A stretch of DNA of 46,766 nt, taken from a bacterium. Lineage in GTDB: Bacteria; Pseudomonadota; Alphaproteobacteria; Rhizobiales; JAKIUO01. The stretch lies in the NCBI GenBank assembly GCA_024228495.1, contig JAAETJ010001059.1, forward strand, positions 1-46,766, given 5' to 3'. Position 1 is the stretch's first letter. Every line of letters begins with the position of its first letter. Made by a program: the position numbers and the translations under genes. The notes below the pieces were generated by a model. That model was not told the DNA's origin, ran no database searches, and saw only the letters and a list, made by a program, of their open reading frames with translations. Below, one piece after another: positions 34,750 to 37,711 of the stretch.

Positions 34750-35170
34750 GGCTCGTTCAATCCTTGTTGTGCTCACTTAAAACTGGGGATTTTGAACTGA
34801 TAACGCAAATGATTATCGTGTCAAGAACATAGGGATGTATAACGATAAGGCGCAAAGCGTAATATGCCTCATATATATACAGGTTTTGCTTGCCAAAGGC
34901 CTATACATACATATATATAACCTGCTTTACGGTTATTGGCCGGTTGGAGGCTGAACGGAAGCATTATATTTTGTTATTGTTGCAGTTCGCAGCAAAATAT
35001 ATTTCATCCCGTGTCTTCACTCTTTTCGGAACTGAATTTTGAGCCTTTTCCCTCTGGGAAGCAGTTGCTCTAAGAGGCTCCGCACCGGACATTAGCGGTT
35101 TTGACAATCGTGTCACCCAAATATCTGGCGGACTTCTCGTTCGCTGGACATTAGAACAAGGCTCATACCC
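34750..35170. other. fabD-rpsF divergent region with TA-rich dyad
   Basis: No gene is visible in these 421 bases. Near the fabD side an imperfect dyad centred at about 34894.5 has CGTAA (34858-34862) opposite TTACG (34927-34931) and ATATATAT (34871-34878) opposite ATATATAT (34911-34918), in exact register. The region must hold promoters for both operons. On the rpsF side TATATT at 34998-35003 is a possible -10, but the nearest -35-like TTGTTG is only 15 bp away. The last 100 bases look like a structured leader and are listed separately. Confidence 0.5.
35076..35160 (+). promoter_or_regulatory. Candidate autoregulatory leader of the rpsF operon
   Basis: Just upstream of rpsF, CCGC (35080-35083) and GCGG (35095-35098) can pair around an 11-nt loop that begins ACCGGA. 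GGACATTAG occurs twice, at 35087-35095 and 35146-35154, the second copy ending 16 nt before the ATG. Many bacteria have an rpsF-leader motif bound by the S6:S18 complex with a key CCG element. The position and the CCG are suggestive, but I cannot fold the sequence reliably or match a consensus by eye. Confidence 0.3.
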
Positions 35171-35614
35171 ATGCCATTATACGAGCATATTTTCATTGCG
35201 CGCCATGATATCTCGGCCCAGCAGATGGAAGCTCTGACAGAGAAATTCACCAGCATTTTGAAAGAAAATGGCGGCAAGGTCCAGACTTACGAATACTGGG
35301 GCCTTAAAAACCTGTCTTACCGTATCAAGAAAAACCGCAAAGCGCATTACGGTTATTTCCAGCTCGAAACGCCCCATGCAGCACTTGCTGAAATGGAACG
35401 TCAGATGACGCTCACCAATGATGTGTTAAGGTTCATGACCATCCGCGTTGATGAGCATGAAGAAGGACCTTCAGCTATGATGCGCAAGTCCGATCGCGAT
35501 GATCGCAAACCTCGCGGCGGACCTGGCGGCGGACCTGGCGGCGGCGGACGATTTGGCGGCGGTGGCCGTGATGGTGGACGCCCACCGCGTCCAAACAATA
35601 GAGATGACAGATAG
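35171..35614 (+). CDS. rpsF: 30S ribosomal protein S6
   Basis: A 147-residue ribosomal protein that binds 16S rRNA with S18 at the platform. The conserved ferredoxin-like part (about 1-95) shows [12 protein letters not shown], the [21 protein letters not shown] block and a [14 protein letters not shown] end. The last 35 residues are a low-complexity glycine/arginine/proline tail ([16 protein letters not shown] followed by [11 protein letters not shown]), longer than in E. coli S6 but seen in alphaproteobacteria. AAGG lies upstream of the ATG. It heads the rpsF-rpsR-DUF2232-rplI unit. Confidence 0.98.
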
Positions 35615-35623
35615 GGATCAATC

Positions 35624-35869
35624 ATGAAAATCGAACAATTACCAGTCCGACGCCCTTTTCATCGTCGACGCAAGACCTGCCCTTTTTCTGGCGATAAAGG
35701 GCTAACCATCGACTATAAAGACGTAAAACTTCTGCAGCGCTATGTTTCAGAGCGCGGCAAAATCGTACCTAGCCGTATCACGGCAGTAACAGCAAAAAAA
35801 CAGCGGGAACTAGCCAAAGCCATCAAACGTGCTCGTTTTCTTGGCTTGTTGCCTTACGTGATTGGCTGA
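35624..35869 (+). CDS. rpsR: 30S ribosomal protein S18
   Basis: An 81-residue basic ribosomal protein that forms a dimer with S6 on the 30S platform. The family pattern is complete: [40 protein letters not shown], and the terminal [15 protein letters not shown]. It starts 9 bp after rpsF with AGGGA upstream. It is followed by a 118-bp gap with a strong inverted repeat. Confidence 0.99.
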
Positions 35870-35880
35870 AATTAAATAAA

Positions 35881-35977
35881 GAGCTGCTGTTTTGCGGTGG
35901 CTCTTTTAATATCAAGTGTTGGGATGAACGAATGAGGCTCAGACATTGAGCCTTCATCTCTAACCGCAAAACAGCGG
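35881..35977 (+). repeat. Nested inverted-repeat element between rpsR and the DUF2232 gene
   Basis: GCTGTTTTGCGGT (35886-35898) and ACCGCAAAACAGC (35963-35975) are a perfect 13-bp inverted repeat, and two more pairs (one G-U) extend it to 35884 and 35977. Inside the 64-nt loop, ATGAGGCTC (35932-35940) pairs with GAGCCTTCAT (35948-35957) with one bulged T. The left arm can instead fold locally (35881-35903, GAGC to GCTC, 8 pairs with wobbles), followed by TTTT: a terminator-like hairpin. The right arm ends at the GGGA that is the likely ribosome site of the GTG at 35988. The layout allows control of termination, RNA processing or translation of the downstream genes. Confidence 0.75.
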
Positions 35978-35987
35978 GACAGCGAAA

Positions 35988-36962
35988 GTGACAAAGAATC
36001 CATATATTGCGGGGTTGGCTGCAGGCTGCGTTGCGGCACTGCTTTATCTATCCCTTGCCACTGGATCGGGCATGGGCCTGTTGCTGTTCTATCTTGCCCC
36101 GCTACCTGGCTTTATCGCGGGATTTGGTTGGGGTGTTCGGGCGGCGGGCGTTGCCGCATTAGCTGGAACCGGACTTATTCTTGCAAGTCTTGGCTTTACG
36201 CCAGCAATCGCCTATGGCGTCTCACTTGCCGTTCCTTCCGTCATTATCACTAATTTTGCTTCTCTTTACCGTCTCTCGGGTGATCCAAGTCAACAACAAG
36301 AAGAGCCAGAACAGCGGCAAATCGAATGGTACCCGGTGGGCAATTTGATGCTCATAGTAGCGCTGTATGGCGGCCTGCTTGCCATGATGACAGTGCTCTT
36401 ACTGGGCACCTCCTATGAAGCCTATCTTGATAAAGTTGGATCGCAACTCGATTTGATCATATCCAAAGCCATTGAGGCCGGATTTTTCAAAAAGCTGAAA
36501 CCGGAGGTAATGGGCCAATACAAGAGCGTCGTGCAGGCCATACTGCCGGCTTCAACGGCGGTTCTATGGTGCCTGCTGGCGTATATAAATATGTGGATCG
36601 CCGCTCATATTGTACGTCTGTCAGAGAAATTGAGCCGTCCCTGGCCCGATCTTTCACGTATCGAATTTTCCTATAAAAGCTCATTCGCCCTGATCGGTTT
36701 GTTTTTCTTGTCGTTTTCCATGCCGGGAATCGGTGGGCTTATCCTGTCTGGCTTTGCCGGCGCGATGATGATTGCTTTTTTGCTAATGGGTTTGGCGGTG
36801 CTGCATTATCTGACGCGCCCTTATCCAGCACGTGGCCTCATTTTATTTGGCACTTATATCACCATCTTTTTCATTGGCTGGGGAGCGATCTTCGTGATCA
36901 TTCTTGGCGTAGTAGAACCTCTCGTACAGATAAGAAGGCGTGCCAACATCGCGCCTTCCTGA
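35988..36962 (+). CDS. DUF2232 family integral membrane protein
   Basis: A 324-residue polytopic membrane protein with about eight hydrophobic segments: an N-terminal pair, GFGWGVRAAGVAALAGTG, a NLMLIVALYGGLLAMMTVLLL helix, ILPASTAVLWCLLAYINMWIA, and a C-terminal group with GFAGAMMIAFLLMGLAVL. It resembles the DUF2232 family, whose members often lie between rpsR and rplI in alphaproteobacteria; its function is not known to me. The start is GTG at 35988, with GGGA 8 nt upstream, inside the right end of the inverted repeat described before it. rplI follows 65 bp later. Co-occurrence with ribosomal genes may be simple operon history. Confidence 0.88.
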   Translation: MTKNPYIAGLAAGCVAALLYLSLATGSGMGLLLFYLAPLPGFIAGFGWGVRAAGVAALAGTGLILASLGFTPAIAYGVSLAVPSVIITNFASLYRLSGDPSQQQEEPEQRQIEWYPVGNLMLIVALYGGLLAMMTVLLLGTSYEAYLDKVGSQLDLIISKAIEAGFFKKLKPEVMGQYKSVVQAILPASTAVLWCLLAYINMWIAAHIVRLSEKLSRPWPDLSRIEFSYKSSFALIGLFFLSFSMPGIGGLILSGFAGAMMIAFLLMGLAVLHYLTRPYPARGLILFGTYITIFFIGWGAIFVIILGVVEPLVQIRRRANIAPS

Positions 36963-37027: not shown

Positions 37028-37648
37028 ATGAAAGTTATTTTGCTGGAGCGTATCAAACGGCTGGGACAAATGGGTGATGAAGTCACCGTCAAGCCTGGAT
37101 TTGCACGCAACTATCTGTTGCCAGTTGGCAAAGCACTGCGGGCAAACAAAGCCAATCGCACGTTTTTTGAAACCCAGCGGGTGCAGTTGGAAGCTCGGAA
37201 CCTTGAAGCAAAAACTGAAGCTGATGCTGTTGCCAAAAAGATCGATGGTAAACATTTCGTCGCTATTCGCCAGGCCGGTGACACAGGTCAGCTTTATGGA
37301 TCTGTCGCTACCAGAGACATCACGGATGTCATTACTGAAAACGGCTATTCTATCTCCCGTAATCAGGTCATGCTTGATCGTCCGATTAAATTGCTGGGTC
37401 TTCATGACATACGTCTTAGCCTTCATCCTGAAGTTGAAATCAAGGTGATCATCAATGTGGCCCGCACGGAAGAAGAAGCCATGCGTCAGGAACGCGGCGA
37501 AGACGTCACGACGATGGACGATGGTGATGATGATGAAAATGAAGTGATCGCTGCTGAAGACATTTTTGAAGATGACGAGTTCGCAGAACAGGCCACCGCT
37601 GAATTGAGCGACGAAGAAGCAGGTGACGAAGATGCGAAAGATGACTAA
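37028..37648 (+). CDS. rplI: 50S ribosomal protein L9 with long acidic tail
   Basis: A 206-residue L9. The N-terminal domain has [32 protein letters not shown]-type sequence (positions 1-32) with the basic loop, a long connecting helix follows, and the C-terminal domain ends near 150 ([22 protein letters not shown]). The last 50 or so residues are extremely acidic (for example DDGDDDENE and [12 protein letters not shown]), an extension absent from the 149-residue E. coli protein. CCAAGGAG precedes the ATG. The operon ends here at a strong terminator. Confidence 0.97.
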
Positions 37649-37678
37649 GTCTGGATGAGCTTCTTATAGACGATCAAG

Positions 37679-37711
37679 CCGGCAATGCTCACTTGGCATT
37701 GCCGGTTTTTT
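37679..37711 (+). terminator. Rho-independent terminator of the rpsF-rplI operon
   Basis: CCGGCAATGC (37679-37688) and GCATTGCCGG (37696-37705) form a perfect 10-bp stem with a 7-nt loop, followed by six T's (37706-37711). It starts 30 bases after the rplI stop and separates that operon from dnaB. Confidence 0.95.

Follow-up and report, generated by a model that had tools for sequence, protein, structure and literature searches.

The window analysed here is a 46,766-nt stretch of DNA from an alphaproteobacterium (GTDB order Rhizobiales). It contains a ribosomal protein operon in which rpsR is followed by a gene encoding a membrane protein of the DUF2232 family and then by rplI:

35624-35869, forward strand: rpsR, encoding bS18 (PF01084)
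35988-36962, forward strand: gene of the DUF2232 membrane protein, GTG start (PF09991, 34.4 bits at a cut-off of 27.8)
37028-37648, forward strand: rplI, encoding the presumed ligand bL9 (PF01281 and PF03948)

Between the end of the rpsR stop codon (35869) and the GTG of the DUF2232 gene (35988) there is a gap of 118 nt, the RNA of which folds better than 200 shuffled versions (z -4.4). The operon likely ends behind rplI, where a strong terminator-like hairpin of 14 pairs with a T-rich tail was seen (37676-37708). According to the translations, bL9 carries a long and acidic C-terminal tail (37466-37645), and the C-terminal tail of bS6 is rich in Gly and Arg (35498-35611).

A three-way-junction RNA in front of the DUF2232 gene

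Positions 35918-35983 of the gap form a conserved RNA with three helices and the general layout G(U/C)UGG..stem..CYCUAA-CCGC..GCGG-GACAGC. In the following, 23S rRNA numbering is given for the corresponding nucleotides:

35918-35983, forward strand: complete three-way-junction element, candidate bL9 operator and H75/H76/H79 mimic, based on covariance models and covariation
35918-35920, forward strand: 5' strand of H75' (GUU), pairing with 35981-35983; U35920 equals 23S U2092
35921-35927, forward strand: 5' strand of H76' (GGGAUGA), pairing with 35954-35960; G35921 equals 23S G2093
35935-35953, forward strand: apical hairpin on H76' with seven Watson-Crick pairs, variable among relatives
35954-35960, forward strand: 3' strand of H76', with covariation; C35960 equals 23S C2196
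35961-35963, forward strand: junction UAA, equal to 23S U2197, A2198 and A2199 in 72 of 72 aligned copies and 21 of 21 23S sequences
35964-35977, forward strand: H79' hairpin, CCGC-AAAACA-GCGG (C2200 to G2223), three of its four pairs changed on both sides
35978-35980, forward strand: junction GAC, equal to 23S G2224, A2225 and C2226 in 72 of 72 aligned copies and 21 of 21 23S sequences
35981-35983, forward strand: 3' strand of H75' (AGC), ending 4 nt before the DUF2232 GTG; A35981 equals 23S A2227

Just the sequence GAAA separates the element from the DUF2232 start codon. The window was matched by covariance model R1 (35915-35983) with 51.6 bits and by model R2 with 51.5 bits, and most copies of the element are 40-90 nt in size. 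Within H75' the U-A pair is invariant, and U-G and C-G alternate; in H76' changes on both sides occurred in four of the six counted pairs.

The structure was evaluated by counting three pairs of H75', six of H76' and four of H79'. In a MAFFT alignment of 38 rows (A1, 38 of 60 loci of the order, leaving out long-loop, divergent and near-duplicate loci), 98.0% of the cells were paired and seven pairs had changed on both sides; on each of five measures, none of 500 shuffles came out as high. A larger alignment (A3) was obtained by fitting loci to the model: 73 loci were submitted, with L034 (no match) and L016 (weak match) excluded, and 72 were retained as L024 fell below the threshold. With 71 distinct rows fitted in this way pairing amounted to 97.7%, eight pairs had changed on both sides, and 78 double-changed cells were counted as compared to 13.9 +/- 3.1 in shuffles. 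When the pairing partners were slid by 1-3 columns, every measure dropped in the 38-row as well as in the 71-row alignment. The pairs U6-A74, G7-C46 and C50-G70 are invariant and contribute no covariation support on their own. The element thus shares with ribosomal protein leaders that it is a conserved structured RNA, with covariation, inside a ribosomal protein operon.

A different structure, that of model R1, which contained a bulged pyrimidine in a long stem and paired GUU to AAC, was replaced by the rRNA-like one. With R1, two positions of the invariant stem were unpaired in 4 and 3 of the 38 rows; with the rRNA-like structure, which is free of bulges, both are paired in 38 of 38.

Distribution and placement of the element

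Of the order, 61 genomes were sampled; rpsR was matched in 60, each of which contributed its locus. With 38 of these loci used to build it, model R2 was found after rpsR in 59 of the 60; 55 matches were clear (E <= 4e-5) and four weak (L020, L042, L016 and L024, E 0.013-0.66). Clear matches were obtained also for 17 of the 22 loci that had not entered the model. Reading of the weakly matching sequences revealed the element with a long insert in L016, and in L024 its 3' half with no recognisable 5' strand. In the only locus for which R2 gave no match (L034), the first base of the rpsR stop codon lies 15 nt before the start of rplI. The element was present in each of 12 additional loci from the order (L120, L125 and L220-L229), some of which are congeners of model genomes, and in all three named Hyphomicrobiales (Sinorhizobium meliloti, at L204:2378-2432, Shinella sp. 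and Methylobacterium bullatum).

At rpsR loci of other alphaproteobacterial orders there was no match among 67 (0 of 27 and 0 of 40); these 67 were the better-scoring rpsR matches of 289 genomes of the class, and rare carriers elsewhere are possible. The rpsR locus of Sphingomonas parapaucimobilis (Sphingomonadales) likewise had no element. To judge from these four named bacteria, the order sampled is probably Hyphomicrobiales. Many of the rpsR-rplI gaps in other orders measure about 1 kb, which leaves room for a DUF2232-like gene, and do not contain the element.

The spread was judged from the searches at rpsR loci, and the following genome-wide searches are no measure of it. When R2 was run on the 289 class genomes as a whole, with at most 19 candidates scored in each, matches appeared in at least five genomes; two from other orders, in G322 (far from rpsR) and in G072 (far from rplI), were taken as chance. 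A strict sequence pattern occurred in 8 of the 289 genomes, namely beside rpsR in three genomes of the order, far away or on another contig in four others, and in G184. Among Rfam 15 families no match above gathering score was found in the window. At E up to 10 for the window stretch, or up to 5 for 18 loci of the order, only matches far below gathering were obtained, including one to sR14 on the minus strand that covers part of the element (E 8). By eye, GC-rich repeat-like sequence was seen between rpsR and the element in Methylobacterium (L206, 2180-2360), and similar-looking sequence surrounds the two stray R2 matches in other orders (L095 and L096).

In the 59 loci with a match, 7-196 nt separate the rpsR stop from the element. 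In 45 of them an ORF of 267-346 aa starts 2-13 nt behind the element, and 42 of these 45 ORFs matched DUF2232 at E <= 0.01. The 14 loci lacking an ORF of this size kept the element, with rplI directly after it. A bL9 start or signature was visible downstream in 41 of the 59 loci; in the remaining 18 the sequence stops 816-1249 nt past the element, inside the DUF2232-type gene or close to its end, with bL9 out of view. The next ribosomal protein gene 3' of the element is rplI, and bL9 is the sole large-subunit protein encoded by the five genes, rpsF through dnaB, that were scanned. That the element regularly lies 5' of the gene encoding its presumed ligand is a further feature shared with ribosomal protein leaders.

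Correspondence to the H75/H76/H79 junction of 23S rRNA

The element was compared with 21 sequences of 23S rRNA, the E. coli record and 20 sequences from the order that span the junction. The latter came from searches in 42 genomes (20 matched, 13 spanned the junction) and in 12 genomes (seven matched, all seven spanned it). In the window's own genome no 23S rRNA was found, and its genus yielded a partial piece without the junction (G003). Eleven nucleotides, corresponding to 23S positions 2092, 2093, 2196-2200 and 2224-2227, were identical in all 72 aligned elements and in all 21 23S sequences. The majority take part in the junction as seen in ribosome structures, for which Mohan and Noller describe a G2093-C2196 pair, a U2197-A2225 Hoogsteen pair, a sheared A2199-G2224 pair, A2198 packed in a groove and U2092 touching A2227 (PMC5309774). 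Through these 11 nucleotides the element resembles the rRNA site of its presumed ligand, as is common, if not universal, among ribosomal protein leaders.

A bipartite 16-letter consensus of the element had its best match at the homologous site in 13 of 13 23S sequences of the order, agreeing in 13-16 of its 16 letters. With shuffled letters, a score as high was reached in 0-19 of 400 cases for ten of these sequences and in 86-192 of 400 for the other three. In the E. coli 23S rRNA the pattern missed the junction and matched 12 of 16 letters elsewhere, a score equalled by 384 of 400 letter shuffles. Run on the 23S loci of E. coli and of 13 genomes of the order, model R1 gave only three weak matches, the best with 12.4 bits (E 0.056, L075). 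Because the L1 stalk makes a long insert in the rRNA, which explains the weak matches, the position-by-position comparison was used instead.

The pairs of H75' and H79' did not track those of the host's own 23S rRNA. In H79' of G386, G390, G404, G434 and G449 the element has U-A and the 23S rRNA has C-G; the reverse was observed in G015, G030 and G046, and G411 has U-A in both. As these pairs do not follow the host rRNA, the junction core alone is copied from 23S rRNA, and the arms drift with compensation.

Candidate ligands and possible regulation

We consider the element a candidate autoregulatory leader that binds bL9 by mimicking 23S rRNA, with a probability of roughly two in three. The choice of bL9 follows from the gene neighbourhood together with the published binding site, since the junction itself is a general feature of rRNA. 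Described as a primary 23S rRNA binder, L9 was placed by earlier toeprints with its N-domain just 5' of 2231 and its C-domain just 5' of 2179, as cited in PMC8730436. The GACAG copied in the element equals 23S 2224-2228, and the N-terminal domain of bL9 is reported to bind at the H75/H76/H79 junction, located at the base of the L1 stalk.

In the proposed mechanism, bL9 in excess over free 23S rRNA would bind the junction copy. The bound protein would stabilise the junction and hold GGGAC together with the start region, and ribosome entry would be blocked at the start codon of DUF2232 in most genomes, or of rplI where DUF2232 is missing. S18, translated upstream, would be spared. The control of L9 would be indirect in most genomes, because the nearby start is that of DUF2232 and rplI in the window has its own AAGGAG; here, polarity or mRNA decay might reduce the level of rplI. 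In genomes without DUF2232 the effect on rplI could be direct. By way of the junction mimic L9 may regulate its own operon. A more far-reaching version, to which we give slightly less than even odds, is that of an order-wide bL9 operator by which excess bL9 or unfinished 50S assembly would directly set DUF2232 translation and couple ribosome assembly to the envelope.

Ribosomal protein leaders with rRNA mimicry include the L1 and S15 operators. The element is like them in being a conserved mRNA fold, located at a translation start in a ribosomal protein operon, with resemblance to the rRNA site of the protein, but differs from them by its likely ligand bL9, its three-way junction, its position inside the operon after rpsR and the membrane protein gene that it usually adjoins. 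It is likely an rRNA-mimicking leader with bL9 as a new probable ligand. In the open-licence literature searched, no bL9 autoregulatory leader was found, no paper connected DUF2232 with RNA, and nothing useful turned up on Sinorhizobium meliloti transcripts of the rpsR-DUF2232 gap. In Pseudomonas aeruginosa, bL9 (RplI) was described as a translational repressor that binds the 5' UTR of exsA mRNA (PMC8730436). That target is encoded elsewhere and, according to its authors, has no obvious similarity to 23S rRNA, whereas the element lies in cis and copies the rRNA site, and the action of bL9 on it is what we infer here. The L17DE motif is likewise a conserved RNA located 3' of a ribosomal protein gene, but it is described after L17 genes in Firmicutes (PMC7247131). 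If bL9 binds, the class of ribosomal protein leaders would gain a new ligand, biophysics a small RNA that isolates the hinge of the L1 stalk, and DUF2232 a regulatory link to ribosome assembly.

The location within the rpsF-rpsR operon could also mean that the element is the S6:S18 operator of Alphaproteobacteria, relocated 3' of rpsR. Eckert and Weinberg call the S6:S18 leader conspicuously absent in this class and mention unpublished candidate motifs (PMC7247131), and a conserved CCG is present in the element. The known rpsF_leader resembles the element in that it belongs to the same operon, folds like an rRNA site and is described to control translation at a start codon (PMC4647458). However, its position is upstream of rpsF, and two unpaired cytosines serve as its mimic of 16S C719-C720, with the CC(G) located in a bulge (PMC4647458); the element precedes DUF2232 or rplI, not rpsF, and copies a junction of 23S rRNA. 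Its two cytosines are paired, C50-G70 in 71 of 71 rows and C51-G69 in 71 of 71, nine of them as U-A. Furthermore, a separate conserved element exists upstream of rpsF, and an S6:S18 operator at 35918-35983 is unlikely.

This second element was recognised in most of 30 loci of the order, in which a far-upstream segment pairs with one just before the rpsF start; a core similar to GAGGCTTTGCGCCGGA was present upstream of rpsF in 27 of the 30, allowing up to five mismatches (the L022 entry in this comparison is a wrong stretch). In the window it extends over 35040-35165, where the stem TGAGCCTT (35040-35047) / AAGGCTCA (35158-35165) closes beside the rpsF start and GAGGCTCCGCACCGGA (35074-35089) represents the core. 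It is a candidate S6:S18 leader. The unpublished motifs of Eckert and Weinberg could be this element or that at 35918-35983, and others may thus already have seen one of the two. With both elements at hand, their remark on the missing alphaproteobacterial leader (PMC7247131) becomes directly testable.

As the mimicked junction is generic and the ligand of a leader is often not the product of the next gene (PMC7247131), the element might sense another ribosomal protein or an assembly factor that recognises H75/H76/H79, with bL9 being only a regulated gene. We regard this as improbable, given that bL9 is the one large-subunit protein among the five genes scanned and that the junction is its reported site.

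The preliminary description had instead proposed a terminator-type switch that separates S18 production from DUF2232 and L9. It was built on the following features:

35886-35898, forward strand: left arm of a 13-bp inverted repeat, not kept in relatives
35963-35975, forward strand: right arm of this repeat, overlapping a junction A and H79'
35878-35906, forward strand: genus-level local hairpin AAAGAGC...GCTCTTT between the rpsR stop and the element, containing the left arm

The repeat is indeed perfect, its right arm ends 12 nt 5' of the GTG at the DUF2232 ribosome site, and among 2000 dinucleotide-shuffled versions of the gap the longest such repeat had 12 bp, in line with the claim that it is hardly due to chance. 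Moreover, the lowest-energy fold predicted for the window genome includes the 13-bp pairing (-43.5 versus -40.2 for the full mimic). Enforcing the full mimic gave energies 3.3, 2.6, 1.1 and 1.5 kcal/mol above the minimum in L001-L004; predicted folding alone thus does not favour the full three-way junction. However, in the same-genus genomes L002, L003 and L004 only 8, 11 and 11 of the 13 positions pair, with no compensatory changes, and divergence of this kind in relatives was what the preliminary description itself had named as speaking against it. Because the pairing decays uncompensated, the repeat is private to the window genome. The core of the right arm is retained within the genus; this arm is constrained since it overlaps the widely conserved three-way junction.

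The left arm can form the local hairpin as proposed, and this hairpin is shared by L001, L002 (with changes), L003 and L004; L005, the fifth same-genus genome, lacks it. Its candidacy as a terminator is weak, as the T-run is mostly the 3' strand of the stem itself. A terminator scan of a 3.2-kb stretch listed it merely in a 5-pair version, among eight terminator-like sites (mean 3.6 in shuffles). The hairpin is possibly a 3'-end or processing signal. The supposed inner 9-bp hairpin turned out to have seven Watson-Crick pairs (35935-35941 / 35947-35953) and one possible G-U, and the repeat listing contained no inverted repeat of at least 8 pairs inside the 13-bp repeat. An intrinsic terminator or attenuator combines a U-tract hairpin with a conserved competing fold; here the tail is weak and the 13-bp pairing is not conserved, which makes the switch very unlikely. 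What holds of the proposal is that the gap encodes a structured, probably regulatory RNA, located at the ribosome site of DUF2232-rplI, by which S18 production could be uncoupled from that of DUF2232 and L9.

Least probable of all is a control limited to DUF2232 and serving no role that involves L9, which the close spacing to this gene in 45 loci would suit but which conflicts with the 14 loci that retain the element before rplI and with the many gaps of about 1 kb in other orders that lack it.

As a minor observation, the 12 identical bases AAAACAGCGGGA occur both in the coding region of rpsR (35797-35808) and in the H79' hairpin (35968-35979), probably by coincidence of two constrained sequences.
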